Assembly (NCBI GenBank): GCA_016783745.1
Contig: JADHVZ010000015.1
Location: 1 to 42,229 of the forward strand
Length of the DNA stretch: 42,229 nucleotides
Reading direction: 5' to 3'
Source of the DNA: Candidatus Omnitrophota bacterium
GTDB lineage: Bacteria > Omnitrophota > Gorgyraeia > JAHIPI01
Notes under the pieces: generated by a model
Told to the model about the DNA's origin: nothing
Seen by the model: only the letters and a program-made list of their open reading frames with translations
Database searches by the model: none
Part shown: piece after piece, positions 748-42,229 of the stretch
Layout: the number at the start of each line of letters is the position of its first letter
How positions within the stretch are numbered: position 1 is the first letter of the stretch
Position numbers and translations under genes: made by a program

Positions 748-1071
748 ATGTTGGATAAAATTTTGGAAGTGAGGTTTAGCGCTTTATGGTATTTATCGAT
801 GATTATTATCATTATCATTGTTACCACCCTCTTATATTTTTTAAAGAAAAAGGCAGTCACCAGCTATAAAAAAATTTCAAAATTGATAATCACTACTTTA
901 TGGGGAGTGATTATAATAATAAGTGTAATAGTAGCTCTTCAATTTCTGGTCATTGGTTTTTCAGCTGACCGAGTGAGTAATTATACAGGCATTGTATTGA
1001 TTATAGGACCGATTACGATAGCCCTCCTTATTAGCTATGCTTTAATGCAAGAAAAACGAAAAAATAAATGA
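748..1071 (+). CDS. Small three-helix membrane protein, unknown function
   Basis: No family recognised. Starting at ATG 748 gives 107 residues. This start has an upstream AAAAGGA about seven bases away, unlike the track start at 694. Three hydrophobic stretches are visible (around residues 11-33, 44-72 and 80-100), joined by a Lys-rich loop, and the protein ends in a basic EKRKNK tail. Its stop overlaps the next ATG in an ATGA arrangement, so it is probably co-translated with the secreted hydrolase downstream. Nothing in it indicates a transporter or enzyme. Confidence 0.6.
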   Translation: MLDKILEVRFSALWYLSMIIIIIIVTTLLYFLKKKAVTSYKKISKLIITTLWGVIIIISVIVALQFLVIGFSADRVSNYTGIVLIIGPITIALLISYALMQEKRKNK

Positions 1072-2135: not shown

Positions 2136-2158
2136 AAGTCACTGCCTTCCCGCCTGAA

Positions 2159-2178
2159 GCGTCAGAGTGTTGCGCAAC
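2159..2178. repeat. REP palindrome
   Basis: GCGTCAGAGTGTTGCGCAAC, a one-base variant of the RAYT-linked REP. It lies 23 bases after the hydrolase stop, and the minus-strand AbiEii relic loses its homology just beside it. Confidence 0.8.
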
Positions 2179-2199
2179 TTGATAGGCATCATTTAATCT

Positions 2200-2326
2200 T
2201 GACATTGAAATCCCAGTCAGAATCCATGATAAGACGTAATTTTTTTCAAGAGTATCTACCGGAATACTTTTTGCCCTATCTGATAATTTGGATTGTAAAA
2301 TAAAAAAGGAGCCTGGACTCAATCAT
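2200..2326 (-). pseudogene. AbiEii-type toxin, 5' fragment with frameshift
   Basis: Reading leftward from an ATG one base after the AbiEi stop: MIESR, then after a one-base shift SFFILQSKLSDRAKSIPVD and TLEKNYVLSWILTGIS. This matches the start of nucleotidyltransferase-type AbiEii toxins, where a D/E-T-hydrophobic-EK-x-YVLSW motif is characteristic. Homology ends near 2205, just before the REP at 2159-2178, so the catalytic GGTA and DID motifs are gone. It follows an AbiEi relic in the normal antitoxin-toxin order. Non-functional. Confidence 0.62.
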
Positions 2327-2327
2327 A

Positions 2328-2701
2328 TTAGGTTGTACCTGTTTTTTCAAATTCCTGAGGACTGATGTTTACGATTAATTTCCATGAATTTTTGTATGTT
2401 TCTTTAGTGTCTAGTAAAGGGTCTAAAACATAATATTTATCGTTGATTTGCGTTTTGAGTTTATTAAGAGATTCAGAGCTTTGTAACTTCAGAATTTCCA
2501 ATATATGGCCAAGGCGTTTAATAACGATATTTTTATTGAATTTTATCGCATAAGCAATAAGCTTGTCATAGTTAATATTTTCTTTTTGCATCCGTATTCC
2601 AGTGGCAATTTCTAAAATACCACCACAATATTTCGGCTGATAAAGGCAATCAATTATAGTTTTCTCAATTTCACTGACTTTTATTTTTTCTGTGTTTGAA
2701 T
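2328..2701 (-). pseudogene. AbiEi-type antitoxin, C-terminal fragment
   Basis: The minus-strand frame encodes KIKVSEIEKTIIDCLYQPKY followed by CGGILEIATGI, the hallmark of the C-terminal domain of type IV antitoxin AbiEi. It then runs to a normal stop just before the AbiEii relic. The N-terminal winged-helix half is missing. The frame upstream of about 2700 reads straight into the 61-bp hairpin repeat, so the track's 204-residue ORF is a chimera of gene, hairpin and unrelated sequence. Relic of a second AbiE locus, distinct in sequence from the intact one at 38522. Confidence 0.72.
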
Positions 2702-2762
2702 AAAAGGGGACAGACACTTTTTGTAGCTTATACGTAGCCTCAAAAAGTGTCTGTCCCCTTTT
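2702..2762. repeat. Long perfect hairpin, GGGGACAGACAC family
   Basis: Arms AAAAGGGGACAGACACTTTT and its complement flank a short loop containing CTTATACG. The complete 61 bases recur identically at 15720-15780, and a related hairpin with a different loop sits at 41671-41722. Followed by TTTTATTT, so it could also terminate transcription. It forms the boundary between the AbiEi relic on the left and a hydrolase 3'-end fragment on the right. Confidence 0.9.
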
Positions 2763-2764
2763 AT

Positions 2765-2833
2765 TTCGGTGGACATTCCTGTACCCCTGATATAGTCCTA
2801 AGAGAAGTTGTCGCTTGGATCGCCTCCAGATAA
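2765..2833 (+). pseudogene. 3'-terminal fragment of an alpha/beta hydrolase paralogue
   Basis: Twenty-two codons, FGGHSCTPDIVL then REVVAWIASR and a stop, align with the last residues of the hydrolase at 1068-2135 (GGHSYPPDNVIREAIAWIASR). The piece keeps the catalytic-His region and stop codon and begins directly at the edge of the hairpin repeat. The about 30 bases after its stop (AAGAGGTTTG and TTTTAGATATTTTAC) recur at 32185-32215. Too short for the ORF track. Confidence 0.72.
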
Positions 2834-2874
2834 GAGGTTTGCTTTTAGATATTTTACACCACCAAAGATTTCCC

Positions 2875-2903
2875 TTGACACCAAATCCATCTTTCATTAT
2901 AAT
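2875..2903 (+). promoter_or_regulatory. Consensus sigma-70 promoter for the MNT/HEPN pair
   Basis: TTGACA, 17-base spacer, TATAAT: a perfect match. The in-frame ATG at 2902 lies inside the -10 box, so translation must start at the later ATG 2923. Confidence 0.85.
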
Positions 2904-2922
2904 GAACAAAGAGGACGATATA

Positions 2923-3489
2923 ATGAAAGATACAAAAATCAAAAAACACCTATATCATCAAAAACCATTAAAAATGCTTTCTTTCCTTTCTACCCACCCG
3001 GGCGAGGTGTTTTCTGCTGATGAGATATCCAAAGCTGCTAAATGTAGTAAGGGGGCGACCAATCAAATATTGAGACTACTTTTAGAGTTGGATATCTTAT
3101 CCAGAGAAAGAAAGGGCAATCTATTTCTATATAAACTTAGCGCCGATAACCTCCTCTTAAAGCAGTTCAAGATATTTGAAAACTTACTAGGCCTTCAAGG
3201 TTTAGTTAGAGAAATTCAAAAATATTGTTATGAGATTGTTCTTTTTGGATCTCGCGCAGATGGGTCTAATGCTACAAAGAGTGACATAGATTTATTCATT
3301 CGCACAGAGTATAAAAGAGAGGTAAGAAAAATTATCTCAAAATATGAGACTGTCGATGTGAAATATCAGGTTGTTATCCAGGATCCCTTAGAATCTGTCT
3401 CGTCAGAGAAAGAAGATAGTATCTTTCATAGACAGGTAAAAAAGGGGATAACCCTTTGGAGGGGAAAGCCAGCTCATGAAGAAATATAA
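2923..3489 (+). CDS. wHTH-nucleotidyltransferase (MNT-type antitoxin)
   Basis: A winged-helix DNA-binding half (about residues 10-75, FLSTHPGEVFSADEIS, LLELDILSRERKGN) is fused to a minimal nucleotidyltransferase domain with VLFGSRADGSNATKSDIDLF (GSxxxG and SDIDL, the metal-binding motif). In MNT/HEPN modules the MNT protein adenylylates and neutralises the HEPN RNase. The start at 2923 is chosen because it is the first ATG downstream of the promoter and has GAGGA seven bases upstream. The gene overlaps the frameshifted HEPN gene by 14 bases. The wHTH suggests autoregulation. Confidence 0.85.
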   Translation: MKDTKIKKHLYHQKPLKMLSFLSTHPGEVFSADEISKAAKCSKGATNQILRLLLELDILSRERKGNLFLYKLSADNLLLKQFKIFENLLGLQGLVREIQKYCYEIVLFGSRADGSNATKSDIDLFIRTEYKREVRKIISKYETVDVKYQVVIQDPLESVSSEKEDSIFHRQVKKGITLWRGKPAHEEI

Positions 3490-3786
3490 TATCCAGGAAG
3501 CACTCAAGAAGAGAAGAATCATTCCTTCGCCTCAAGGGCACTTCTTTTTAGAAAAAGCTACCGAGAAAAAAGCCATATTCAGCTTGCATTTGCCATTAAG
3601 GCTTTCTATGTTGATGAAGGATTGCTCCCTCAAGAATATTATGATAATTTTATTCAAGCATTGGATCTTCGAGAGATGGCAGATTATAAAAGTAAATTTT
3701 CAAGACAGGGCGCAGAGAGAAATATTCAAGCCGCAGAAGTTGCTATTAAATTAGCAGAAAAACTCCTAAAAAACAAAAAGTCATAA
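3476..3786 (+). pseudogene. HEPN-domain toxin, frameshifted
   Basis: The opening frame gives MKKYNIQEALKKRRIIPSPQ, a good HEPN N-terminus. After about base 3540 the meaningful sequence moves to the next frame: LLFRKSYREKSHIQLAFAIK, AFYVDEGLLPQEYYDNF, ADYKSKFSRQGAERNI, ending AEKLLKNKKS at 3786. One missing base in the CAAGGGCAC region accounts for it. The track ORF (3476-3754) is therefore half artefact. The partner MNT gene is intact, so the pair keeps its antitoxin and has lost its RNase, unless the shift is a sequencing error. Confidence 0.75.
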
Positions 3787-3909
3787 GTCGGAGAATCCCC
3801 TCTGAACGTCGCAAAAGTTCAAAGTCCCCTCTTCCCTCTCCGACGAGCTCGGGCGCTCTCCACCCCCTCCAATGTCGCAAAAGTGTTACTTTTGCGACGG
3901 ATTTTGGGA

Positions 3910-4075
3910 GGGATCCAGTTTTTAAGCCAACTGGTTTATCAAGATGAGTATAAGCGCCCAATTTCTTTGCTTCCGATATAGTTTTTTTAGTTCCGTACCC
4001 AGTCAATATGATGACGGCTGTATTTTTATGAAGCTTTTAATAGTCTCAAGGATCTTCAATCCGAGCATACGATAT
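3910..4075 (-). pseudogene. Response-regulator receiver (REC) domain relic
   Basis: On the minus strand, RMLGLKILETIKSF followed after a one-base shift by AVIILTGYGTKKTISEAK and KLGAYTHLDKPVGLK reproduces the second half of a CheY-like receiver domain (the hydrophobic strand with T/S, G-A-x-x-x-L-x-KP with the conserved Lys). The phosphoacceptor half and any output domain are missing. Its upstream edge meets the left end of the IS element at 4089, which may have cut it. Confidence 0.62.
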
Positions 4076-4178
4076 AGGGAGGATGTTTTGTTTAGAATCT
4101 TAGTTAAGTTTCTAGGCTTAAGATTTTGTTAAGGTTCCGGGTCTCCTGAGGTATAATAAGATCGGAAAGGAGGTCCCC

Positions 4179-4565
4179 ATGGAACCGAGAAAATGTTACC
4201 GAAAAATCAATGACCCAAAAGAGCGTTTAAGGATCGTTCTCGCAAGCCTTCAGCCAGGCGTCAATAAATCAGAGCTGTGCCGCCAAGAGGGTATATACCT
4301 TCAGCAGCTCGTTCACTGGACCCAGGAGGCCCTTAAAGGCGCTGAAAACAACCTAAAACGGCAGCCCAGGAAAGCCAGGGAGCGCGACTTGGAAAAAGAG
4401 TACCTTAAACGGGAAAACGACCATCTCAAAGAACTATTGCTCGAACACACCAAGGAGATCTCTGTCTTAAAAAAAACACGAGTACATAATGAAATACCAG
4501 GGCAAATTACCTATGCGCTTTACTCCGGAAGAAAAATTGGATATTATCCAGCTTGGTCGTTATAG
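4179..4565 (+). CDS. IS3-like transposase OrfA (HTH plus leucine zipper)
   Basis: A DNA-binding accessory protein of 128 residues. A helix-turn-helix of the IS3/IS911 OrfA type lies around residues 14-60 (KERLRIVLASLQPG, SELCRQEGIYLQQLVHW), followed by a heptad-like segment (EKEYLKRENDHLKELLLEH) suited to multimerisation. The start has a near-ideal GAAAGGAGG. A run of eight A at 4469-4476 precedes the overlap with orfB. OrfB lies in the +1 frame, not the -1 frame usual for IS3, so the C-terminal 27 residues after the A-run may be replaced if slippage produces a fusion. Confidence 0.82.
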   Translation: MEPRKCYRKINDPKERLRIVLASLQPGVNKSELCRQEGIYLQQLVHWTQEALKGAENNLKRQPRKARERDLEKEYLKRENDHLKELLLEHTKEISVLKKTRVHNEIPGQITYALYSGRKIGYYPAWSL

Positions 4566-5526
4566 CGGCCTGGGCTTTGAAAAGACCTTGAGTCTTTTTG
4601 GCATCAAGCCATACAGGGTGTGGCGCTGGATACGTAATATAGAACGAAAAGGCTTTGCCGGCTTAATAGACCAGCCGCCTATTCCCAAGTCGTCACCGCA
4701 TAAACATCTTGATGATGAAAAGGCACTTGTCCTTGAAAAGGCAAATACCTATACCCATTTGAATCACAGGAAGCTTGCCCATCAGATATTCCGTGATGAG
4801 GGTGTTTTTGTATCCGAATCCCTCGTATATCGTGTTCTCAAAGAGCATAACCTTATTCAACCTAAACCGATTCTCAGAATAGAGGCCGCGGATAGCTGGA
4901 AAACCCAGCCAGAGGCGCCTAATCAGATATGGCACATCGATATCTCTTATATCCCCTGCGGTCTCAATGATAAAGGCAACGTGATCTTCTGGTACTTGGT
5001 CGTAGTATTAGATGGCTATTCACGGTTTGTGCTTGCATGGGATCTCTTTCCTGATATGACCAAGGAAAGGTGTTTCGATGTCGCGGATCAAGCCGTTTTC
5101 CTTGCACAATTGCCACCTGACAAACGACCCAGACTTGTAAGCGACAACGGCAAGCAGTTCAGAGCAAGAAAATCTCGAGAATTTTTCAAAGAGCTGCTGA
5201 ATATCCAGCAGATATTCACAAGTACTCATCATCCAGAAACTAACGGTAAAATAGAACGCCTCTTTGAGAGCGCCAAATATGAAGCTCTTTATCGTAATGA
5301 TTACTGTTCCATGGCAGAGGCGAAAAAGATTCTTCTTACCTTCTTTGACTATTACAACAATCACAGGCTTCATCAGTCCCTTGGCTATCGAACACCCAGA
5401 GAGGCCTATTATGGCTTAAACCGGGACTATGACCAAAAACGACAAAGAGCAAAGTCGGAAAAACTGAAGCAAAGAAAACAATATTGGGCTAAATCAGGGG
5501 ATCTTTTAACAATATCAAAGAGCTAG
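4489..5526 (+). CDS. IS transposase OrfB, rve/DDE integrase
   Basis: 345 residues: an N-terminal HTH (RFTPEEKLDIIQLGRYSGLG, YRVWRWIRNIERKG), an HTH_21-like linker (HLNHRKLAHQIFRDEGV) and an RNase-H-fold catalytic core. The triad is Asp in WHIDISYI, Asp in LVSDNGKQF and Glu in HPETNGKIERLFE, followed by the usual YNNHRLHQSLGYRTPREAYY. The frame is intact and of normal length. It may be translated independently from ATG 4489 (weak RBS) or as an OrfAB fusion by slippage on the A8 run. Confidence 0.87.
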   Translation: MKYQGKLPMRFTPEEKLDIIQLGRYSGLGFEKTLSLFGIKPYRVWRWIRNIERKGFAGLIDQPPIPKSSPHKHLDDEKALVLEKANTYTHLNHRKLAHQIFRDEGVFVSESLVYRVLKEHNLIQPKPILRIEAADSWKTQPEAPNQIWHIDISYIPCGLNDKGNVIFWYLVVVLDGYSRFVLAWDLFPDMTKERCFDVADQAVFLAQLPPDKRPRLVSDNGKQFRARKSREFFKELLNIQQIFTSTHHPETNGKIERLFESAKYEALYRNDYCSMAEAKKILLTFFDYYNNHRLHQSLGYRTPREAYYGLNRDYDQKRQRAKSEKLKQRKQYWAKSGDLLTISKS

Positions 5527-5685
5527 AAACTTAATTTTGTCTTGACACAGGACATTCCGCAAAGCGTCTGACATTTCAATATGTAAGCAATAAATCGTTA
5601 GATCTTCGTCTTTTTGACGTCTATTTAGATGGTGAGGTATATAAAAAGTACGAAAATGTTAGCAAAATAGAAAGCTATTTGGTGC

Positions 5686-5714
5686 TTGACAGGCGCACGT
5701 TATTATTATAAAAT
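5686..5714 (+). promoter_or_regulatory. Sigma-70 promoter of the polysaccharide operon
   Basis: TTGACA, 17-base spacer, TAAAAT, leaving a leader of about 100 bases before the ATG at 5821, which has AAGGAG just upstream. The track ORF 5715-5909 lies in this leader and overlaps the gene out of frame; nothing suggests it is translated. Confidence 0.7.
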
Positions 5715-5820
5715 ATGAAGCTATCCCTTACATATCACTTACACTATCGACTTCTACGAGAGGTAGGTAAAGCCCCTGTTCTTTCCGATCTACTTTACCT
5801 CAAAAAAAGGAGCCATTGTT

Positions 5821-8800
5821 ATGAAATCACTAAACAGGTTTATTGCCATAATAGGCGTTTCGCTAATAGCCGTATTTTCCGCGCTCAATTGCGTAAATGC
5901 TGCCACTGACATGATCGACAATTATAATGACAGCGATACCTTCAATAACACACTCGGTTATCCGACCTACACGATCCCTTCAGATACTACTGAGACCGAT
6001 CCATATCTCTTTGAGAACTACGATGACGGTCTTCTTTACCCTAATTATCGGGGTTGGTGGGAGGGATCAGCCGGTATTTCACCTCACGCCGAAGTGGCGA
6101 GCCCTACATACAACGGAACCAACGTGCGGCTCTTTACCTGGAGTACCGACACAGCATATTATGCATCAAACCTTTCAAACAGTGGTACGGTAAATCTTTC
6201 CGACAAGACCGCTATTCTATTCGCGATCAAAGGCGCTGCCGGAGGAGAGGACGTCACTATCCGCCTGCAGGATATGAGCAATTATTCGGAAATAGATATT
6301 ACCGGCATTACCACTGACTGGCAGGTTATGCGTGTCTTTTTAAGCGGATTTGGTGGTGTTGACCTTTCGGCATTGAGGGCTGTCGGATTTCAATTTGACG
6401 GTGCCGGCACTGTGTATGTAGATGAGATTAGATTCAGTGTTGTAGCGGTTCCGGAGATACGGCTCCATAATTACAGCCGATGGGAAGTAAAGCCGAATAA
6501 GGCTAGGAAGATAACCTTTGCTGCGCCCACAACGCCGCCGGGGGTTTTTACTTCGGAATTGGCACCCGCCGCAAGTTATTATGATGCGGGCGCATACAGC
6601 AATCTTTCATTCCGCGTAAAGGGAGAACTGGGGGGCGAGTCTTTTGATGTCGAGCTGCAATATGGATCGGGCCCTTCATCCGCAAGCCTTCCTGTCACGG
6701 ATTATGTAACGATCAACAATCAGTGGCAGCAGGTAAATATACCTCTTTCCGATTTTTCAGGACTGAGTACATCGCAGCTTGTCTCTCTGCGCCTTGAATT
6801 TGATTCATTCTTTATCTCTAACGGCGATATTGTCTACATCGATAATGTACAGTTTTCAGATGGATCAGCTAAACCCCAGAGTACGGGAGATGTGCGGGTG
6901 GACTATGCGAACAACACGTTGCAGGTGAGAGATGGCGTCGTATATAGGGACTATATAGTAAAGGGCCTCGGATACCAGGCGATTCCCGTCGGACAGGATG
7001 TCCTCTATTTCCTGGAAGACAGATTAAGTTGGCCTGCTGTTCCCGGGGAGCCAAAGACCCGCGGAGAGCTGCTTGCCGAATTGTGCGACCGCAATTTTCC
7101 CATGCTGAGGCTTATGGGAGCCAATACCATCCGCACGTGGGGCGATCCATCCACCGTGTTTATGCAGAAAGCGGCAGAACACGGCCTTAGGGTGATGGTG
7201 TCATTCTATATCAATAAGGATGACAGTTTTGTGCCCGGATCAGGCGACCGCACAAGAATCGAGAACGACTTCCGCAATATGGTAATAAAATACCGTGATC
7301 ACGACTGGGGAGCCTATAGCGACCCGACGCTGACATGGATACTCGGCAACGAAGTGAATTTCCATTTCAGCTCGTCTACTCCTGTAACAACTATTCAAAA
7401 CTACTATGATCTGCTCAATACTCTGGGTGAGATCGCCTATACGGAAGAGGGGGCGGACTACCATCCTGTGATGCCGGTAAATTACGATATTTTCCACATA
7501 GGTGTCGATGAATTTGCGACTGACGATCTACAGCTCGATTATATTGATCTTTGGGGCAGTAATATATACGCTATGGAATTTGAGGACCATGCATGGCTCG
7601 GGGAAGCCGGAAGGAACATGTTCAATGTTTATAATGAAAAGAGCTCCAAGCCGTTGATAGTCACCGAGTACGGAACGGACGCGTTTTTTGCACTGGGAAC
7701 GCCTCCGGCATCCACGACTCTCGGCTATGAAGATGAGGTCACTCAGGCCGCGTGGGTGAAGAATAATTTTCTGGATATGGCCTCATATAACAGCATAGTG
7801 CTTGCGGGAACAGTTTTTGAATATGTGGATGAATGGTGGAAATCCGGAGGACTCACCGTCCACGATACTATCGGTTATTATTGGGCACCGCCGCTTGCGG
7901 GGGAGCCGCATGATCACCCTGATATGTATTCGAATGAAGAGTTTTACGGTGTTATGCAGATAGCTCCCGATGGAGCATGGAGCGTGCCCGATGGCCTTGA
8001 CGATATCAAGGAGAGGCAGATCTTTACTACGCTTCTTGAGATATACCGCGGTGATGAAGCGATATGGCTGGAGGAGTATTCGGTGCGTGACCATGAAGTG
8101 GGAATAAATAACGACGGTTACTTCAACCCGGATGAGACCGTCTATATCAAGATCAAATTGAAGAATCGCTCGGCGAGCGATTTTGATGTAACGGCGCGGT
8201 TGAAATTTTTCAATCCGGATCCCCTCTATACCGATCCATACGTATTTATTCAGCCGTATGATACGGGCGCAGCCGGCGAGATCGACTTTGGCACTATTAA
8301 CAGCGGCGATACGGTAGAAGGGCTTTTCAAGGTCTCCTCGGACTTCTCATTGTTCCCTGACAACCCCATCAATTACTCCGTCGATTTTAAAGTGGAGGTG
8401 ACATCCGTCGACTATTACGATCCTGATATTGTCCATGTGGGCGATTTCAGGCTTCCTGTGGATGTTGTTCCTACTATCTATACATCTATAGATGAACGCA
8501 ACATCGGGGTATCCGCGGTTAATTCAGCGAAGTTGAGCTACAGCAAGAACGGTTACGTCTATATGGCGTGGGAAGAAGAGAGTTTGGGCACAAAAGAGAT
8601 ATATTTCGCGAGTTCAAATGATTTCGGGCAGACCTGGGGCACGCCGAAGCGCGTCAATGAAAATACCGGTTTTGATGCGGAAAATCCGCAGATCACATGC
8701 GATGATTCGGGCAGGGTGTATATTGTCTGGGAAGATGCGCGTAACGGCGGTAAAAGCATCTATATGAATCGTACGATAGATCACGGCCAGACATGGTTTC

Positions 8801-35200: not shown

Positions 35201-36696
35201 TCAGAGGCGATGGAACCACATTCGGTAACTGGCCGCATGAATTCGATTTTCATAATTCTGGCTTTGCCGGCGCTTCTTTAGTTGCTAATATTGATGCAGA
35301 TGATGATGTGGAGGTTGTGGTTTTGACTAATGAGTGTGGTGACTCTGATTGGAGAACGCATTTGTATATATTTGATAATAACGGCAGCTTGAAAACCGGA
35401 TATCCGAAGCGATTTGACATGGAACCATACTTTATACCGGCACTTGACGATTTAGATGGTGACGGTGATATTGAAGTTGCTGCATTCGGAAAATATAATC
35501 GGAATTGTTTAACACCTTTCTATGCCTATGATCTGGAGGGATATTGCGAGGATAGAAGAATGGAATGGCCGATGTTTCAACATGATCCGCAGCATACGGG
35601 ACTTTACGCCCCGCCTGAAGGAGAGAATAATCCGCCTGCCGCTTCTATAACCTCGATTTCACCGAATCCGGCATATCAAGGTGATACTGTGAGTTTTGAA
35701 GGATCAGCCACAGATCCGGATGAAGGCGATACAATTGTGGCGTATAAGTGGGCATCAAGTATAGACGGATTATTGAGCGAAGAAGCATCGTTTGCGACAA
35801 ATGCATTGTCAGCGGGAACGCATACCATCACCTTTGAAGCGCAGGATAGTGGCAACACCTGGTCTATGGCTGCAATAGCGACATTAGAGATAAAACCTTC
35901 TATCTGTGAATTGTCACTAAAGGACGGTGATATTGTATCCAGTGATGTCTATGTAAGTATGGCCTTTAGGGGGGAGATGGTACCATGGTTCCAATTTAAA
36001 GTCGATGGTTGTTATGCGCAGTATAATCCCTGGAGGACACAATATTTTTCGAATGGTGAACATACAGTTTATGGTCAATATGCCAGCGGAGGAGAATGGC
36101 ATAAAACCCCGCCTATTACGGTAGTTGTAAATAATGTAATCTCATATGTGCCGGAGATAACATTTCCGGCCGATGGCGCGGAAGTATCGGGCAACGTTAA
36201 TGTCAGTTTTGAAACTAAGGCCACATCAGCTTACTTTGCCTTTTTATATGCTAATAATAAAATCGTAGGCTGGAAAATCCTTTATCAAAAACAACCTCCG
36301 CATAATATTTTATGGCGGACAGCGAAGCTGCCGAACGGCCCGTGCGATTTAAAACTAGTTGTTTATTACTTTTTAGCCGGCGCAGTGACTTCAGAATCTG
36401 CCAGGGTTACCATCAACAATTCTACAATACCAGCCCCAATCATAAATCTCACCTGCCCCAATCCAGCTTCCGGAATAGTCAATGTCCACATATCAAGCGA
36501 CGATAATATCGATTTTTTTGCCCCCACGATTTATGCAAATGGAAAATTAATCGGCTTTAAATGGGGGCTGCCTTGCGACATAATATGGGATACGAAAAAC
36601 TTTCCTAATGGTTCATATAACTTACATTTCCGCGCGTATTATCGCTCAATGCGGAAATGGATTGAGCTGGACAGAGTCGTTGAAATCCGGAATTAG
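32275..36696 (+). CDS. Secreted subtilisin-like protease with FG-GAP, PKD and Ig-like domains
   Basis: 1473 residues. Signal peptide (about 1-29), then a fervidolysin-type propeptide (YAPGEVLVKFKEGAEPEAVL ... VEYAQPNYIMEVH) containing an unusual charged insert (EKDSNGWYWFMGKKY to SPEEKTLYRSYK). The S8 peptidase has Asp243 (AVIDTGVDY), His309 (GHGSHCAGI) and Ser499 (GTSMSGPYVAGVAA), with the oxyanion Asn in SNSWG. From about 670 to 1105 there are FG-GAP/VCBS-like repeats with Ca-binding DxDxDG loops (DIDNDGDPEI, DLDGDGYMEI, DIDGDGRTEI) alternating with GWP motifs. A PKD domain (about 1118-1205) and Ig-like domains follow. A surface or extracellular protease; target unknown. It stands alone between debris regions. 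Confidence 0.9.
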   Translation: MRNSTIKQRSLSFIIILSICLFIPSDIRAQFGGRKNLPLENQPFEIQPVGNSAPFQAGQERQEPKYAPGEVLVKFKEGAEPEAVLQEIDLEAKNIERVHSIKPALSKFRKSWKLEKDSNGWYWFMGKKYQDKEEVSDEEVFQEAYKEMSPEEKTLYRSYKIALPEETSVEQAVVELENNPDVEYAQPNYIMEVHMIPNDPYYHTTGTWGQSYDDLWGLKRDKLNCQWAWNISQGEGVTVAVIDTGVDYNHEDLTGNIWINQAELHGLAGFDDDGNGYVDDVRGWDFSGDFNYPPDPIQPDNDPSDYYGHGSHCAGIVAAVGNNNKGIIGVAPRAKIMPLKIFPNAYTDVAVQAIKYAADNGARVLSNSWGPPFRRASDPSLEDAVDYAYSRNCVLVFSAGNNNDDVAYYSPANYTKTIAVAATDRNDVKTDFSNWGNKIDIAAPGGDSGNMLETPSGEHFYVNILSLRAEDTDMYEDVPNYTPGEFVLGNHYYRARGTSMSGPYVAGVAALIISQEPSRTPIDVKRVLFASADDKGPEGFDRYHGFGRVNAFRALIANSISYVRARMREPEPDRQFSNVVTITGTAIAKNFSHYTIDVGEGKEPESWSDFGVSLNSGGGTEVVDDMLGAWNSSHSSYGIYTIRLRVFNTSGLSREHRVTIVINNLIQEGWPQHVEGRSSSNPVIVDIDNDGDPEIIAGSYADAAGEVYVWHHDGTIARGWPVSLGGVCRTPAAGDLDGDGYMEIVVEVEYPYFERHYEKIFVFQYDGTPYPGDWPKGDGREIEYVTTIPTIADVDKDGFLEIIVGGENGELHAWHHDGTIVSGWPVNVEYSRSITAPAVGDIDGDGRTEIVAAVGCKISDDWTGYIYAWNDDGTLVPGNWPVTVDGAVEPPVLGDIDGDNQLEILVNALGTLFAFEHDGTIIPGWPKEMQLEEINWGSPMLGDLDRDGMPEIIVTGGSFSYDSSDNMISKNGVWVFRGDGTTFGNWPHEFDFHNSGFAGASLVANIDADDDVEVVVLTNECGDSDWRTHLYIFDNNGSLKTGYPKRFDMEPYFIPALDDLDGDGDIEVAAFGKYNRNCLTPFYAYDLEGYCEDRRMEWPMFQHDPQHTGLYAPPEGENNPPAASITSISPNPAYQGDTVSFEGSATDPDEGDTIVAYKWASSIDGLLSEEASFATNALSAGTHTITFEAQDSGNTWSMAAIATLEIKPSICELSLKDGDIVSSDVYVSMAFRGEMVPWFQFKVDGCYAQYNPWRTQYFSNGEHTVYGQYASGGEWHKTPPITVVVNNVISYVPEITFPADGAEVSGNVNVSFETKATSAYFAFLYANNKIVGWKILYQKQPPHNILWRTAKLPNGPCDLKLVVYYFLAGAVTSESARVTINNSTIPAPIINLTCPNPASGIVNVHISSDDNIDFFAPTIYANGKLIGFKWGLPCDIIWDTKNFPNGSYNLHFRAYYRSMRKWIELDRVVEIRN

Positions 36697-36887
36697 CACA
36701 TTAAGGTGTTGCAATAGTAGCTTGAACCTAAGGAGGTGTTGAGCAACTTCAATAAAGATAAGGTGTTATAGAAATAATCTAAAAAAAATTAAAAAAATAT
36801 GCAAGAAAACGCCTCTTTTTATGTATATATTAGTGAAGGGAGGTATTTTTTTGATAAATAGGTCTCTGTCCCATATTTATTATAGAA
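36697..36887. other. Intergenic with degenerate REP-like words
   Basis: AAGGTGTTGCAATAG and GGTGTTGAGCAACTTC near 36705-36753 look like decayed REP arms. AATAGGTCTCTGTCCC (36858-36873) resembles the AATTAGGCTCCGTCCC hairpin and directly precedes the RAYT fragment. No gene seen. Confidence 0.45.
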
Positions 36888-37033
36888 GTTTCTTAGACTT
36901 TGACTCTAAAGATGAAAAGTTGTATACTGATTTTGAAACACCAATGGGCGATTCTAGCTTTAAAGCCAAGCTTATCAAGCAATGCGGTCATTATATGCCC
37001 AAGAGGAAGGGGAAGGCGCTAAGCAGGATTTAG
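36888..37033 (+). pseudogene. RAYT C-terminal fragment
   Basis: FLDFDSKDEKLYTDFETPMG then DSSFKAKLIKQCGHYMP matches the last 45 or so residues of the RAYT at 3-605 almost word for word. The match continues through the 3' flank (TTCTTGTAAT, ATTGATA) into a REP. The upstream part of the track ORF (36821 on) is unrelated. All catalytic motifs are absent. Confidence 0.88.
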
Positions 37034-37065
37034 TATTATTCTTGTAATATATTGATAATAGTCAA

Positions 37066-37085
37066 GTTCCGCAACACGTCTGATG
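37066..37085. repeat. REP palindrome, variant
   Basis: GTTCCGCAACACGTCTGATG, one base off in each palindrome, at the same distance from the RAYT fragment as the REP at 649 is from the RAYT gene. Confidence 0.8.
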
Positions 37086-37090
37086 CACTA

Positions 37091-37138
37091 CTTACTTTCC
37101 TACTTGACGAATTCCTTACTTTATGGTATACTTACTTT
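37091..37138 (+). promoter_or_regulatory. Promoter with triple TTACTTT repeat
   Basis: TTGACG (37104-37109), 17-base spacer, TATACT (37127-37132). TTACTTT occurs three times at about 20-base spacing (37092, 37116 and 37132 region), so every copy faces a similar side of the helix: a candidate AbrB-type operator. Confidence 0.6.
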
Positions 37139-37155
37139 GGTAGGAGGTGGTCAAA

Positions 37156-37413
37156 ATGACAGTTATAATGACAGTGAAGAATCAAATAACAATCCCTAAA
37201 AAGATAACAGACGCGCTGGGCCTAGACAAGGGTTCTATGTTCAGGGTAGAGATCTCTAAGAATGTAATAGAGCTGATTCCCCTTGAAACGAAGGAAAAGG
37301 AGTTCACAGAAGAGGAATATGTGAAATTAGAAGCACTCGCGATGAAGGAGAAGGGGAAAGAAAAACGGGTGACAAAGAAGTTTATTAGTGATTTGAAAAA
37401 GGGAAGAGGCTAA
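37156..37413 (+). CDS. AbrB/SpoVT-type antitoxin
   Basis: 85 residues from ATG 37156, with AGGAGGT seven bases upstream (the track GTG at 37147 lies inside that site). The swapped-hairpin AbrB fold is evident in MTVKNQITIPKKITDALGL, then DKGSMFRVEISKNVIELIPL. A charged C-terminal tail (KEFTEEEYVKLEALAMKEKG) would wrap the toxin. Four bases before the truncated toxin frame. Confidence 0.85.
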   Translation: MTVIMTVKNQITIPKKITDALGLDKGSMFRVEISKNVIELIPLETKEKEFTEEEYVKLEALAMKEKGKEKRVTKKFISDLKKGRG

Positions 37414-37416
37414 TCT

Positions 37417-37590
37417 ATGCCGTTACGCCTTTATTACAGACCTTCTTTTAAAAGGAGCCGCAAGAGTCTTGGCCATACCCAAAAGAAAATAGTCGGAGTG
37501 ATATTAGAGGCATTAACTGCTTATTACTTTAGTGGGTGCGATCTATTAGAAGCACAAAAGATAGAAGAGTCAACTGATCAACATTCATGA
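37417..37590 (+). pseudogene. RelE/ParE-like toxin, truncated
   Basis: 57 codons: MPLRLYYRPSFKRSRKSLGH, then QKKIVGVILEALTAYY, SGCDLLEAQKIEEST, and a stop. The pattern fits the N-terminal half of RelE-superfamily toxins, where about 90 residues are normal; the basic catalytic strands are missing. A different frame just past the stop (INIHDYYVGGKDVAYLISPV) looks protein-like but I do not recognise it. Not in the ORF track. Confidence 0.62.
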
Positions 37591-37663
37591 TTACTATGTT
37601 GGTGGAAAAGATGTTGCATATCTAATTTCACCAGTACAAGAGAAAGAAAAATATTAGTTTAAC

Positions 37664-37692
37664 TTGACATATGTCATGACATATGGTACAGT
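37664..37692 (+). promoter_or_regulatory. Promoter with perfect 18-bp palindromic operator
   Basis: TTGACA, 17-base spacer, TACAGT. CATATGTCATGACATATG (37668-37685) is a perfect palindrome filling the spacer, so a bound repressor would block RNA polymerase. Confidence 0.8.
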
Positions 37693-37702
37693 TGAGGTGT
37701 AG

Positions 37703-37882
37703 ATGACAGAGAAGGAGATAGTAGGCAAGCTTAAGGATTACATGCAACGACATGATCTCCGGCAGTGGGAATTCGCAAAGAAGATAGGTGTTCCAGAGAG
37801 AACATTAAGCAGATGGTTAGGTAGAAAAACAAAAATCTCTCACGCATATCTACGAGTTCTTGAACAAGAAGGGATTATATAA
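37703..37882 (+). CDS. Small XRE/Cro-type HTH protein
   Basis: 59 residues: MTEKEIVGKLKDYMQRHDLR, QWEFAKKIGVPERTLSRWLG, then RKTKISHAYLRVLEQEGII. It consists of little more than the helix-turn-helix, as in Cro-like repressors. GTGTAG is the only weak RBS, and the start lies about 5 bases past the expected transcription start, so the message is nearly leaderless. Two matching palindromes (37668 and 37905) flank the gene, making it a likely autorepressor that also controls the peptide downstream. Not in the ORF track. Confidence 0.72.
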   Translation: MTEKEIVGKLKDYMQRHDLRQWEFAKKIGVPERTLSRWLGRKTKISHAYLRVLEQEGII

Positions 37883-37904
37883 AATTTTTTACCTAAAATA
37901 TAGA

Positions 37905-37922
37905 CATATGTCAGGACATATA
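37905..37922. promoter_or_regulatory. Second operator, 16 of 18 match
   Basis: CATATGTCAGGACATATA differs at two positions from the palindrome at 37668 and sits two bases before the ATG of the membrane peptide. Confidence 0.72.
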
Positions 37923-37924
37923 GC

Positions 37925-38068
37925 ATGAAGAGCACAATAAAAACATTAATATTCTCAACGCTAATAACCGTAAACATCATCATCTGGCATGAAATCCTTG
38001 GGTTGGATTTCTTACTGGCGGTGCTAGTGGCGGTTTTGGTGTTGGTGTTTGTGGTATGGGATAGGTGA
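37925..38068 (+). CDS. 47-residue two-helix membrane peptide
   Basis: No family recognised. MKSTIKTLIFSTLITVNIII is followed by WHEILGLDFLLAVLVAVLVL and VFVVWDR: two hydrophobic helices with a short Glu/Asp turn. Size and topology resemble small toxic membrane peptides and holin-like proteins, but that is a guess. An operator for the upstream HTH protein covers its translation start region. No Shine-Dalgarno is visible. Missed by the ORF track. Confidence 0.45.
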   Translation: MKSTIKTLIFSTLITVNIIIWHEILGLDFLLAVLVAVLVLVFVVWDR

Positions 38069-38075
38069 GGGGAAG

Positions 38076-38110
38076 GGATTGCTTCGGCCGCTGCGCGGCC
38101 TCGCAATGAC
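38076..38110. repeat. GATTGCTTCGG...CTCGCAATGAC palindromic repeat
   Basis: The ends GGATTGCTTCGG and CCTCGCAATGAC with an inner GGCCGC/GCGGCC stem match the GTCATTGCGAGG-type dispersed repeat seen in many bacterial genomes. It is unrelated to the other repeat families here; only one copy lies in the window. Confidence 0.65.
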
Positions 38111-38124
38111 GAAAAGGAGGCTTT

Positions 38125-38271
38125 ATGTTTTGGTCCAAGTCGAATCGGCTTAATACTGGTTTCTTGGAGATCCGGGAAAAGCTGCATCGGGATGTATTGG
38201 CGGATAATCCGCCGCGGAAGACTGCGATGAGAACAAAGCGTCAGACGTGTTGCGCAACTAACCATAAGTGA
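38125..38271 (+). pseudogene. Short 5' gene fragment reading into a REP
   Basis: AAAAGGAGG seven bases before ATG makes this a very well-marked start. MFWSKSNRLNTGFLEIREKL then HRDVLADNPPRKTAM is protein-like, but the frame then runs into the REP (RTKRQTCCATNHK) and stops. I do not recognise the family. Best read as a gene cut by a REP, leaving only its first 35 or so codons. Confidence 0.45.
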
Positions 38272-38359
38272 AAAAGTTACGAAAATAATCCAGAATTATT
38301 TTGATTCTGCATTTTTTATGTAATATATTGATATTATTGGACTAAGGCAACACGTCTGA
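38238..38359. repeat. REP pair forming a 122-bp BIME/MITE-like element
   Basis: A canonical REP at 38238-38258 faces an inverted partial REP at 38346-38359 (GGCAACACGTCTGA). Between them are a diverged version of the spacer following the REPs at 30961 and 40387, and the TGTAATATATTGATA flank that otherwise follows the RAYT frames. 38360-38485 shows nothing recognisable. Confidence 0.78.
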
Positions 38360-38485
38360 AATTTCCCCAACTTTGGATAGCCCCATAGGTTTAAAATACT
38401 GCCAAAATAGCTACTCAGTATTGATAAAATAGAAGTAATCAAAACCGCTAATTACGAAAAGTTTTAAGCAATTGGCTATGATGGG

Positions 38486-38514
38486 TTGACAAAAGTTTAA
38501 AATTATGCTATAAT
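38486..38514 (+). promoter_or_regulatory. Consensus promoter of abiE; apparently leaderless
   Basis: TTGACA, 17-base spacer, TATAAT, all perfect. The ATG at 38522 begins 8 bases after the -10 box, where transcription should start, and no Shine-Dalgarno exists. Confidence 0.85.
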
Positions 38515-38521
38515 ATCTATT

Positions 38522-39301
38522 ATGGATAGACAAAAAAGCAGTAAAATAAACAATATTCTTAAAAAATGGCCAAAAGGCTCTATAGCTGTGTATAATTGGT
38601 TAAGAGCGCAAGGAGTTTATCATCAACTTGCGGACACGTATGTCAAGGGATCGTGGCTAGAGCGTGTTGGTAGGGGTGCTTTTAAACGCTCTGGGGATGT
38701 TGTTGACTGGCGTGGCGGATTGTACGCGTTGCAAACACTATTAAAGATGTCTGTGCATGCGGGCAGCAAGACGGCACTTGAGCTGCAAGGTAGGGCCCAT
38801 TATGTGTCAGTTAATATGAAGCAGCATAGCATTGTCCTTTTTGGCGGGAAAAATGAAAAGCTTCCGGCATGGTTTAGTAAACATGATTGGAAGGTAAAAA
38901 TACGTTATGTTATGAGTGGAATTTTTGGCGATAATAAATTTATCGGTCTTACAGATCACAGCGCGGGTGATTACCAGATCAAGGTCTCATCACCGGAAAG
39001 GGCGGCGTTGGAATTGTGCTACGATGTCCCATTTAAAAAACCATTTGATGAGGTCGACTATATAATAGCGGGACTTACTACCCTTCGGCCACAATTAATT
39101 CAAAGTCTTCTGGAAAAATGCAGGTCTGTTAAGACGAAAAGAGTTTTTATGTATTTAGCGGAGAAACACAAGCACCTGTGGGTCAATAAGCTCGATCTAG
39201 GAAATGTTGATTTTGGCAGAGGAAAGAGAGCCCTATGCAAAAATGGTCATTATGACAAAAAGTATAAAATAGTAGTGCCAAAAGAAGAAACGAATCTATG
39301 A
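38522..39301 (+). CDS. abiEi: AbiEi-type antitoxin (type IV TA)
   Basis: 259 residues. The N-terminal winged helix (SIAVYNWLRAQGVYHQLADT, YVKGSWLERVGRGAFKR) is followed by the AbiEi C-terminal domain (TALELQGRAHYVS, VSSPERAALELCYDVP). AbiEi represses its own promoter and counteracts the nucleotidyltransferase AbiEii without binding it. It overlaps the toxin by ATGA. The message appears leaderless. A fragment of a sister copy is at 31075-31224. Confidence 0.9.
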   Translation: MDRQKSSKINNILKKWPKGSIAVYNWLRAQGVYHQLADTYVKGSWLERVGRGAFKRSGDVVDWRGGLYALQTLLKMSVHAGSKTALELQGRAHYVSVNMKQHSIVLFGGKNEKLPAWFSKHDWKVKIRYVMSGIFGDNKFIGLTDHSAGDYQIKVSSPERAALELCYDVPFKKPFDEVDYIIAGLTTLRPQLIQSLLEKCRSVKTKRVFMYLAEKHKHLWVNKLDLGNVDFGRGKRALCKNGHYDKKYKIVVPKEETNL

Positions 39302-40215
39302 AAGATAACTTATTCTATAAACAGGCGGATCTCCTGATCCAAGTTCTTCCGCATATAGCCGCTGACGAAGATCTTGCTTTACACGGCGGGACGGCGATCA
39401 ATTTCTTTGTACGGGATATGCCGAGATTATCAGTTGATATCGACTTGACCTATTTACCCATCTTACCCCGCGAAGAATCATTGAAACAAGTAGGAAAAAA
39501 ATTACAAATAATCTCTAAAAAGATCCGCGATTCTTTGCCAGCGGTACGGATAGATAAAAAAAGTGATGAAAGGCAAGATAGCGTCACAAAGCTTTTCGTC
39601 AACTATAAAAACGCGATCATCAAAATAGAGCCCAATCAGGTTATTCGTGGCGCGTTTTTTGCCTGTGAGGAATTAAGACTTTGCAAAAAAGCAGAACAGA
39701 TATTTGAGAGATCTGTTGCTGTTAAGACGCTGTCATTTGCCGAGCTTTATGGATCAAAGATATGCGCGGCGCTTGATCGCCAGCATCCGCGGGATCTTTT
39801 TGATATTATGTTGTTATTAAAAAACGAAGGTGTTACTGATGAGGTCAGAAAGGCGTTTCTTGTATATCTCATCAGTCACAATCGACCCATGTCTGAGCTT
39901 TTAGAGCCAAAATTGAAGGATGTACGCGCTGTGTTCGAAAATGAATTTTCCGGAATGACATCAGTTGCTGTAAGTTATGCGGATCTAGAAAATGCGAGAA
40001 GATCTCTAATACAACAAATAAAAGAAGATATTACCAAAAGTGAACGGGAGTTTCTTCTGTCGTTCAAGGAAATAAATCCTAAGTGGGATCTTCTTGGTGT
40101 TAAAAATGTCGAGGATCTACCTGCGGTAAAATGGAAGCTTTCCAATTTAAGAAAGATGGATTCTAAAAAACATACTGCCGCTATCAAAAAATTGGACAAT
40201 GTCTTGTTTGGATAA
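39298..40215 (+). CDS. abiEii: AbiEii-type nucleotidyltransferase toxin
   Basis: 305 residues, apparently intact. LALHGGTAINFF (GGTA motif), LSVDIDLTYL (DxD metal ligands), KTLSFAELYGSKICAALDRQ and HPRDLFDIMLLL are the AbiEii/AbiGii signatures. These toxins transfer nucleotides and some modify tRNA; in phage abortive infection they arrest the host. Translationally coupled to AbiEi. The only complete AbiE pair of three in the window. Confidence 0.92.
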   Translation: MKDNLFYKQADLLIQVLPHIAADEDLALHGGTAINFFVRDMPRLSVDIDLTYLPILPREESLKQVGKKLQIISKKIRDSLPAVRIDKKSDERQDSVTKLFVNYKNAIIKIEPNQVIRGAFFACEELRLCKKAEQIFERSVAVKTLSFAELYGSKICAALDRQHPRDLFDIMLLLKNEGVTDEVRKAFLVYLISHNRPMSELLEPKLKDVRAVFENEFSGMTSVAVSYADLENARRSLIQQIKEDITKSEREFLLSFKEINPKWDLLGVKNVEDLPAVKWKLSNLRKMDSKKHTAAIKKLDNVLFG

Positions 40216-40226
40216 TGTTTTGTATC

Positions 40227-40350
40227 TTATTTCTTCTTCCTTAAATGCGTAGGCAGGATGCGGAGGGATTCTCTATACTTGGCGACTGTCCTGCGCTGAA
40301 TTACAATACCTTCACCGGCCAGTGTTTCCTGAACGGCTTTATCGCTTAAT
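40227..40350 (-). pseudogene. rpoN 3'-terminal fragment (copy 2)
   Basis: LSDKAVQETLAGEGIVIQRR, then TVAKYRESLRILPTHLRKKK and a stop: the last 40 codons of RpoN, including the RpoN box. The match ends abruptly at AACAAAGCG, the start of the REP at 40358. Shared variants link it to the fragment at 31949 rather than to the resident gene. Confidence 0.88.
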
Positions 40351-40501
40351 GAACAAAGCGTCAGACGTGTTGCGCAACTAAACAAAGCGTCAGACGTGTC
40401 GCGCAACTTGCCATAACTCAATAAGCTACAAAACAAATGCAGAATTCTCTCGATTCTGGTAATTAGGCTCCGTCCCTAATTACTCAAAGTGTCTGTCCCT
40501 G
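40351..40501. repeat. Tandem REPs, AATTAGGCTCCGTCCC hairpin and GTGTCTGTCCC half-arm
   Basis: Two REPs in direct order 29 bases apart (40358-40378 and 40387-40407, each led by AACAAA), the conserved ACTCAATAAGCTACAAAAC spacer, one hairpin (40459-40483) and a single arm CAAAGTGTCTGTCCC of the other hairpin family. All three repeat families meet here. Confidence 0.88.
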
Positions 40502-40526
40502 ACAACGCCTGACTTTTTCAGATTAC

Positions 40527-40582
40527 TTGACTAAACCTCGACAGTGGTGTATACTATGTTCTATAAAACGAACATATGTTCG
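40527..40582 (+). promoter_or_regulatory. Promoter and palindromic operator of the MNT/HEPN pair
   Basis: TTGACT, 17-base spacer, TATACT; then a perfect 14-base palindrome CGAACATATGTTCG at 40569-40582 in the leader, a likely site for the wHTH domain of the MNT protein. Confidence 0.72.
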
Positions 40583-40614
40583 GTAAAAGAAGCAAACATT
40601 AAGGTGATGGAATC

Positions 40615-41238
40615 ATGAAGATACGTGACAAATTAGACGAAATATTAAATCAAGGTTCAAAGATAAAAATATTACGTTTTCTTTTTGCTGCAAAGGACGA
40701 ACATACAGGCAGAGGTATTGCTAAGGCTATCAATATGAGTGTATCGTCTACATATGAAACACTTCAAGAGATGAAAGATATTGGTATAGTTAGCGCAAGA
40801 AGAAAAGGTAAGGCAAAGTTATACAAACTAAGAGAAAATAATCATTTTGTTAAAGAGCTACTAGCTCCATTATTTGAAAAAGAAAAAGCTCTATATAATA
40901 ATATTATTAATTCTATTAAGAAAGCTCTATTAAAAAATAAAAAGAATATTATTTCAATTGCTATATTTGGCAGCGTTGCCAGTAACCAAGAGACATCAAA
41001 AAGTGATATTGATTTAGCCGTTATCGTGAGGAATAATCGTGAAAGAACAAAAACTGACGAATTAATTGATAAATTGAGTATTGATATGGCCCAAAAGTTT
41101 GGTGTTGCCATTTCACCGTATGTTTTAACAGTATTAGAGTTCCGCCATAAATACAGTAAGAAACTGCCTATCATTAAATCTATTGTAAGCAATAATAAAC
41201 TTATTTATGGTGAGCCAATAGAGAGGATCATAGCATGA
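40615..41238 (+). CDS. wHTH-nucleotidyltransferase (MNT-type antitoxin)
   Basis: 207 residues. Winged helix (ILRFLFAAKDEHTGRGIAKA, TYETLQEMKDIGIVSARRKG), a helical spacer, then the MNT domain with IAIFGSVASNQETSKSDIDL (GS and SDIDL). Same architecture as 2923-3489 but clearly diverged. It neutralises the HEPN partner, in known modules by adenylylation, and probably autoregulates through the upstream palindrome. ATGA overlap with the HEPN gene. Confidence 0.88.
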   Translation: MKIRDKLDEILNQGSKIKILRFLFAAKDEHTGRGIAKAINMSVSSTYETLQEMKDIGIVSARRKGKAKLYKLRENNHFVKELLAPLFEKEKALYNNIINSIKKALLKNKKNIISIAIFGSVASNQETSKSDIDLAVIVRNNRERTKTDELIDKLSIDMAQKFGVAISPYVLTVLEFRHKYSKKLPIIKSIVSNNKLIYGEPIERIIA

Positions 41239-41648
41239 GCGCTGCAAGGCATTTCAAAACAAAAAGCGTTGATAAAAGTGATTATTCAATATATCTAGGG
41301 AAGGCTAAAGAATTTTATCAAACAATGTATCAAGCAGAAAAGGCAGAAAACTGGAATGCAGTTGGTTTGAATGGCGTACACTGCGTTATTTCATTAATTG
41401 ATTCACTTCTTGCCAAACATGCTGGAATACGTTCGACAGAAGAAGAACATATGAAAGTAATCGACCTACTTAATTCTTCCATTGCAAGCATGATAAAAGA
41501 TGTTGCGCAAAAGAGCCAGGCCGCGAGGCGTGTAATAGCCAAAAAGAATCTCATTGAATACGAAAATAGGGATTTCAAGCAGAATGAAGCCTTGGATTTG
41601 ATAAAACAAGTTCAGAGGTTTTACGATTGGGCCATTGAGTATATTTAA
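41235..41648 (+). CDS. HEPN-domain toxin
   Basis: 137 residues, all helical. The first helices (DYSIYLGKAKEFYQTMYQAE, WNAVGLNGVHCVISLIDSLL) and last (NLIEYENRDFKQNEALDLIK, RFYDWAIEYI) follow the HEPN pattern. A classic R-x4-6-H is not obvious; the N-G-V-H segment may be a variant. Directly coupled to the MNT gene, which is the strongest support. Intact, unlike the HEPN gene at 3476. Confidence 0.8.
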   Translation: MSAARHFKTKSVDKSDYSIYLGKAKEFYQTMYQAEKAENWNAVGLNGVHCVISLIDSLLAKHAGIRSTEEEHMKVIDLLNSSIASMIKDVAQKSQAARRVIAKKNLIEYENRDFKQNEALDLIKQVQRFYDWAIEYI

Positions 41649-41670
41649 TATGAAAACAAAGCGTCAAGTA

Positions 41671-41722
41671 AAAAGGGGACAGACACTTTTTAAGTGCTTC
41701 AAAAAGTGTCTGTCCCCTTTTT
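41671..41722. terminator. Hairpin repeat acting between convergent genes
   Basis: GGGGACAGACACTTTTT and its complement flank a short AAGTGCTTC loop, with A-runs and T-runs outside both arms. Placed between HEPN (+) and rpoN (-), it can terminate both. Same family as 2702 and 15720 with a different loop. AACAAAGCGTCAAG, a broken REP, lies just before it. Confidence 0.85.
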
Positions 41723-42229
41723 TATTTCTTCTTCCTTAGATGCGTAGGCAGGATGCGGAGGGATTCTCTATACTTGGCGACTGTCCTGCGCTGTATTACT
41801 ATCCCCTCACCGGCAAGTGTTTCCTGAACGGCTTTATCGCTTAATGGCTTAGCTTTATTTTCAGCGCCCACAATTGCCCCTATCTTTTTCTTTATAGTGA
41901 TCTTAGAGGTGACCTCGCCGTTTTCCTTCTTTATCCCATGACTCAATAGACTCTTCAAGGGCACTACCTTATCGTTTACTTCAATATATTTATTAGATAC
42001 AGTGCGGGTAATAGTGGAGGGGTGCATGTTGAGCGCGGTTGAGATATCCTTAATAGTGAGGCTTTTTATCTCTTCGACACCATTAGCCATCTCATTCTTA
42101 TGAAAACCCAGGATGAAATCCGCCACCTTGCACATGGTTTCCTCGCGCCGCTTGAGGTTATCTATCAGGTGCCTTGCCGAATCCATATTCTCTTTCATGA
42201 ATTTGCGCGTTTCAGGGTCTTTTACGATA
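41722..42229 (-). CDS. rpoN: RNA polymerase sigma-54 factor RpoN, C-terminal part
   Basis: The frame is open to the window edge (VKDPETRKFMKEN precedes the track's Met), so only the last 169 or so codons are here. Core-binding and HTH regions are visible (KRREETMCKVADFILGFH, SLTIKDISTALNMHPSTITR), and the C-terminal RpoN box RRTVAKYRESL contacts the -24 promoter element. The gene ends LPTHLRKKK just before the hairpin. Two shorter copies of this 3' end lie at 31949 and 40227. Confidence 0.95.
   Translation of the reverse strand, partial: IVKDPETRKFMKENMDSARHLIDNLKRREETMCKVADFILGFHKNEMANGVEEIKSLTIKDISTALNMHPSTITRTVSNKYIEVNDKVVPLKSLLSHGIKKENGEVTSKITIKKKIGAIVGAENKAKPLSDKAVQETLAGEGIVIQRRTVAKYRESLRILPTHLRKKK

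Follow-up and report, generated by a model that had tools for sequence, protein, structure and literature searches.

A short helix-turn-helix (HTH) gene, a membrane-peptide gene and two matching operator-like sequences form a cassette in the window, by which we mean the whole stretch of 42,229 nucleotides analysed here, and this cassette very probably represents the autorepressed, immunity-like integrase-control region of a small integrative element that has decayed at this place. Sequence comparison establishes its anatomy and conservation, its linkage to recombinases and the joint change of operator and recognition helix. In phage and ICE immunity systems, the repressor gene commonly resides near the integrase gene, and palindromic operators are located in the promoters. 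From these features we infer binding, repression and their course in time, as well as whatever role the peptide may have. The HTH protein, probably as a dimer, would bind the first operator (O1) in the spacer of its own promoter and thereby shut off its own transcription. It would also bind the second operator (O2) at the ribosome-binding or start region of the next gene and thereby repress a downstream operon encoding the membrane peptide, an excisionase-like protein and the recombinase. As long as the element is integrated, the promoter of the HTH gene and the operon that follows would both be kept silent, while upon entry into a naive cell a brief expression of the operon would lead to integration followed by silencing, as for the immunity repressors of phages and ICEs.

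Anatomy of the cassette and its second copy

The cassette comprises, in this order, the promoter with O1, the HTH gene, a T6 run, O2 and the peptide gene (Table 1). The -35 box TTGACA is located at 37664-37669 and the -10 box TACAGT at 37687-37692, and the 17-bp spacer is occupied by CATATGTCATGACATATG (37668-37685), which equals its own reverse complement and overlaps the final two bases of the -35 box. The sequence CATATGTCAGGACATATA at 37905-37922 is identical to this palindrome at 16 of 18 positions. When up to three mismatches to the palindrome were allowed, O1 and O2 were the only matches in the 42-kb window, compared to a mean of 0.03 in shuffled sequence. The coordinates and the self-complementarity of the perfect 18-bp palindrome, which the preliminary description had assigned to the promoter spacer, were thereby verified; the second palindrome (16/18) was found against the start of the 47-residue peptide as described, and the open reading frames of the peptide and of the 59-residue HTH protein lie where they had been placed. 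Overlooked at that stage was the homology to a second copy, which spans about 37663-38230 and takes in the start of an integrase.

Table 1. Features of the cassette and its flank, with their positions in the window and the basis of each assignment
Feature	Position	Strand	Basis
Homology to second copy, contig C13 (L004 about 1836-2405)	37663..38231	+	DNA search, alignment
Sigma70-type promoter of HTH gene, TTGACA - 17 bp - TACAGT	37664..37692	+	TTGACA equally placed in 19/20 loci
Operator O1 (predicted), perfect 18-bp palindrome CATATG-TCATGA-CATATG	37668..37685	.	promoter spacer; position common to relatives
Stand-alone Cro/CI-type HTH protein, 59 aa, predicted repressor	37703..37882	+	Pfam, AlphaFold2, family alignment
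T-tract (T6 run) between HTH stop and O2	37885..37890	+	T5-T8 in 20/20 loci
Operator O2 (predicted), 16/18 copy of O1, abutting the peptide gene start	37905..37922	.	sequence match
Membrane hairpin peptide, 47 aa, two predicted helices, N..IW[YH]E..G motif	37925..38068	+	profile, AlphaFold2
Dispersed GATTGCTTCGG...CGCAATGACG hairpin repeat directly 3' of peptide gene	38078..38111	.	DNA search
Tyrosine recombinase fragment, first 35 codons, ending at GCGTCAGACGTGTTGCGCAAC repeat	38125..38230	+	alignment with L004

An Rfam search of 36500-42229 yielded no structured RNA match. The T-tract was considered as an intrinsic terminator and rejected, as the preceding hairpin is not consistent and its energies are similar to those of shuffled sequence in most loci. 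O2 lacks a good -10 box, which we count against the reading as a control cassette; the site may act on a second promoter, as a block to read-through or via looping.

According to Pfam, the HTH protein of the window scores just below the HTH_3 cut-off and that of the second copy (contig C13) above it. Structural modeling with AlphaFold2 predicted four helices (pLDDT 95), a fold that matches those of HipB, P22 c2, SinR, ICEBs1 ImmR (7t8i) and P2 C with high probability and E-values that are not strong. Among PDB sequences, the HTH family matches the antitoxin PezA best, and P22 c2 is also among the matches. The protein fails the curated family cut-offs of PezA (18.8 of 290 bits), HipB (16.7 of 79) and HigA (16.3 of 47.7), and searches of viral, phage and plasmid collections returned weak general HTH matches only. 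The HTH protein is of the Cro/CI fold, and no named family fits it.

The second copy, which is located on contig C13 (L004) of the same genome and is 93% identical to the window cassette, continues into a tyrosine recombinase frame starting at L004 2299; we count this in favour of a control cassette. The C13 recombinase is interrupted by an IS21-type insertion carrying IstA/IstB-type genes. Its C-terminal part (5360-5638) gives a weak Phage_integrase match (25.3 bits, cut-off 27.1) and also matches PHROGs phage integrase families, and the alignment to an intact relative (L087) shows 57% identity over the aligned 187 residues, with the first 56 residues missing. Between the C13 peptide and recombinase genes the excisionase-like gene is absent and its place is taken by the hairpin repeat, which in the window likewise lies where relatives carry an excisionase-like gene. 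Stretches of 35-40 bp resembling this repeat are widespread in Omnitrophota genomes, as many short matches. Since the recombinases are broken or shortened and the excisionase-like gene is missing, both copies are remnants, and the element in the window, with its truncated recombinase, cannot move by itself. A coding signal is seen between the two copies: the differences in the HTH gene are mainly synonymous (dS 0.27, dN 0.02), and the synonymous bias is weaker in the peptide gene (dS 0.21, dN 0.075).

Relatives of the cassette in Omnitrophota

Relatives were sought at the DNA level in 384 genomes of the same phylum and, with the HTH alignment as query, in 85,462 species genomes. In these scans they were confined to Omnitrophota, except for two weak matches in Prevotella, and a profile search added further, more distant HTH relatives. 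Twenty HTH loci were analysed in detail; the loci stem from metagenome assemblies, and the survey is to be read as a sample. That all 20 share promoter, O1, T-tract and O2 also counts for a control cassette. The hexamer TTGACA resides at the -35 position in 19 of them, the remaining locus (G270) having TCGACA, and in each an operator-like sequence occupies the spacer ahead of a -10-like box and a run of T5-T8 follows the HTH stop codon. Two CANNTG hexamers at a distance of exactly 12 bp make up O1 in 15 of the 20. A second operator-like copy begins about 20-27 bp past the HTH stop codon, and some loci have a third; the poorest fit to this layout is G073b. Downstream of O2, most relatives carry a recombinase or transposase gene, which the peptide gene and an excisionase-like HTH_17 gene may precede. 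The preliminary description had proposed a minimal repressor-effector cassette and had named a pairing conserved nowhere, with no coding signal of the peptide frame in relatives, as evidence against it; since the HTH gene, the peptide gene and the two operators recur together in other Omnitrophota genomes, the pairing of the small genes with the palindrome is conserved and that proposal is supported.

Tyrosine recombinases account for the first sizeable downstream gene at 12 loci, serine recombinases at two and IS1-like transposases at three, so that a complete or partial recombinase or transposase comes first in 17 of the 20 (in the window, a fragment). This linkage likewise speaks for a control cassette. 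Tyrosine recombinase genes are often preceded by the small HTH_17 gene. One of the serine recombinases was assigned by Pfam (G073a) and the other by its likeness to the first (G147), and the IS1-like transposase of G364 extends beyond the contig end. At the three IS1-like loci (L061, L063 and L064, from G364, G270 and G295), an HTH gene with twin operators precedes the transposase, and the second operator of G364 shares bases with the start codon of this gene. Counted against a control cassette are the variation in recombinase class among the loci and two loci (G214 and G053) in which HTH and peptide genes are kept and a recombinase is absent within about 3 kb.

One element, that of L029, was delimited. 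It has 51-bp direct repeats at its ends, about 6.2 kb apart, one of which is the 3' part of a tRNA-Glu gene. The repeats enclose the cassette with its integrase, a HigB-type toxin gene, an HTH/M78-peptidase gene and genes of unknown function, and among the open reading frames examined at 770-6978 no phage structural gene was recognised. The same tRNA-Glu 3' segment was found after the integrase of L025, and both observations count for a control cassette. A simple exact-repeat search of the other stretches examined gave no clear att pair.

To compare operators with proteins, the loci were assigned to nine classes according to the initial residues of the predicted recognition helix (PERTLSRW, PESTxNRW, PDGTLNRW, PEATLNRW, PxITISRW, SFSTLNRW, PxQTVNRW and two singletons). 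When O1 was compared to the downstream region, the mean (of 16) was 13.2 for the own locus, 13.1 for loci of the same class and 10.0 for those of other classes, and when one representative of each of the nine classes was permuted, p was 5e-5, the lowest value that the number of permutations allows. Sixteen weaker HTH matches in the phylum served as a control and show no such pairs of sites (10.9 as against 15.5 of 18; p = 2e-7). The contrast is slightly exaggerated by one of the 16 (L068), whose upstream sequence is too short and which was scored zero, and this p-value, like all except that of the nine-class permutation, assumes independence of related loci. As judged from these comparisons, the operator sequence varies with the recognition helix of the HTH protein. 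Such a joint change would be expected of a specific repressor and the operators that it binds, and it also speaks for a control cassette. About nine repressor/operator pairs are available in this family, and with them the change of DNA specificity in a very small HTH protein might be followed.

The peptide was found by profile search at nine places in seven of the 384 genomes and, together with L032 and L036, has 11 members, all of which lie directly behind a small HTH gene. Conserved are a K near the start, an N, the W[YH]E motif and a G. AlphaFold2 predicted a helical hairpin (pLDDT 90), and the peptides form a genuine family of predicted two-helix membrane hairpins, the members of which were all found to follow such an HTH gene. 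Searches of Pfam, NCBIfam and PADLOC gave no match, a PHROG match was non-significant, and no related peptide was detected in viral contigs or, by fold, among predicted viral structures. Half of the 20 loci retain the HTH gene and both operators and have no peptide gene, which makes the peptide an optional passenger of the cassette. Inspection by eye showed an overlap of the likely peptide ribosome-binding site CAGGTGAG with operator copy two or three at several loci, a position compatible with control there. On the minus strand of L095 (about 680-1110; G254 contig C23), the peptide gene lies behind an HTH gene of a different type, with matching twin operators and a T-tract, which suggests that the peptide can pair with another repressor. 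The role of this peptide family is open to direct testing.

Integrase control compared with other explanations

The preliminary description had suggested an undescribed toxin-antitoxin system. In that case, the peptide would act as a pore-forming toxin of small size, to which the HTH protein would be the antitoxin by way of transcriptional repression. Such an addiction pair would agree with the order of HTH and small-peptide genes, with the conserved pairing, each peptide match lying behind an HTH gene, with the AbiE and MNT/HEPN toxin-antitoxin genes nearby in the window, and with PezA as top PDB match; HipB, HigA and PezA also have HTH similarity and an autoregulatory design in common with the cassette. 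However, the HTH protein stays far under the cut-offs of these families, no cognate toxin family is adjacent, and its likeness is that of the general Cro/CI fold common to P22 c2, SinR and ImmR. Furthermore, the usual downstream target is a recombinase, or in some relatives a transposase, the peptide is absent in half of the loci, and it matches no toxin, defence or phage family. We therefore do not retain this suggestion and consider an addiction pair improbable. Compatible with integrase control would be a peptide that serves as a superinfection- or entry-exclusion protein or another establishment factor and is repressed together with the integrase. The predicted membrane hairpin points in this direction, as do the location of the peptide gene, which follows the repressor gene and precedes the integrase gene within one presumed operon, and its occurrence in part of the loci, which would suit an accessory function. 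We nevertheless rate it as rather unlikely, as the peptide has no homologue of known function, viral contigs and predicted viral structures included, and would be repressed in the integrated state, in which exclusion genes are usually expressed.

A temperate prophage would likewise have a Cro/CI-like HTH protein, twin operators and a nearby integrase in its immunity region. The gene content of the 6.2-kb L029 element, with no phage structural gene recognised among the open reading frames examined, phage and viral collections nearly devoid of related HTH proteins, and the apparent control of IS1-like transposases in some relatives render this explanation very improbable. Of the prophage remnant initially proposed, the remnant of a mobile element is supported and the strict prophage is not. 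The cassette might also be a host regulator that is retained for its own sake and has no tie to mobility, since HTH gene, peptide gene and operators are intact in both copies of this genome although both recombinases are broken, and since substitutions in the HTH gene are mainly synonymous. The divergence of the copies may, however, be older than the decay of both, and relatives are linked to intact recombinases; a host regulator is hence hardly probable, and we favour the control region of an integrative element.

Compared to known systems, the type of mechanism is familiar and the family is apparently undescribed. The cassette HTH protein has the Cro/CI-type fold of ICEBs1 ImmR, P22 c2 and P2 C in common, but consists of 59 residues only and is without a second domain. 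Unlike the ICE and phage repressors, those of the cassettes make up a single small family. Its members have one operator in the promoter of their gene and a copy that lies 20-27 bp past the stop codon, serve tyrosine, serine and IS1-like enzymes and are accompanied by no recognised conjugation or phage genes. Small tRNA-integrating islands resemble the elements in their attachment repeats at tRNA 3' ends and in an HTH_17 (AlpA/Xis-like) gene followed by a PF00589 integrase, to which the cassette adds the probably autorepressed HTH protein, the twin operators and often the membrane peptide. A literature search found no paper on integrative elements of Omnitrophota, which is not proof of novelty, and the literature found on integrase control concerns other elements only. 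As mobile elements of this uncultured phylum seem to be hardly described, the family might serve as a tag for locating integrative elements in its genomes. It might further be speculated, with the balance leaning somewhat against it, that a portable autorepressor module has been joined to unrelated mobility enzymes (tyrosine, serine and IS1-type) across the phylum, that its operators and recognition helices have co-diverged into immunity groups, and that the new two-helix membrane peptide family truly acts in establishment, exclusion or addiction.

Surroundings of the cassette

The cassette lies in a toxin-antitoxin-like cluster (37147-41648) with an AbrB/MazE-type antitoxin and a degraded partner frame, AbiEi/AbiEii and a nucleotidyltransferase/HEPN-like pair. 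The repeat GCAACACGTCTGA occurs in the window at 654, 15681, 30964, 37071, 38241, 38347, 40361 and 40390, that is, at eight of its 15 sites genome-wide (at most one mismatch), and several inverted pairs surround toxin-antitoxin genes. These flanking pairs prompted us to consider integron attC-like sites, and a REP-type repeat is the likelier explanation: a gene for a REP-associated tyrosine transposase (54-605) and its C-terminal fragment (36821-37033) adjoin two of the sites, and GCAACACGTCTGA is therefore probably of this type. The 3' end of rpoN (sigma-54) is duplicated with 95% identity (40227-40351 and 41722-41846); the duplicates bracket the nucleotidyltransferase/HEPN-like gene pair, for which the rpoN 3' end looks like the insertion site.
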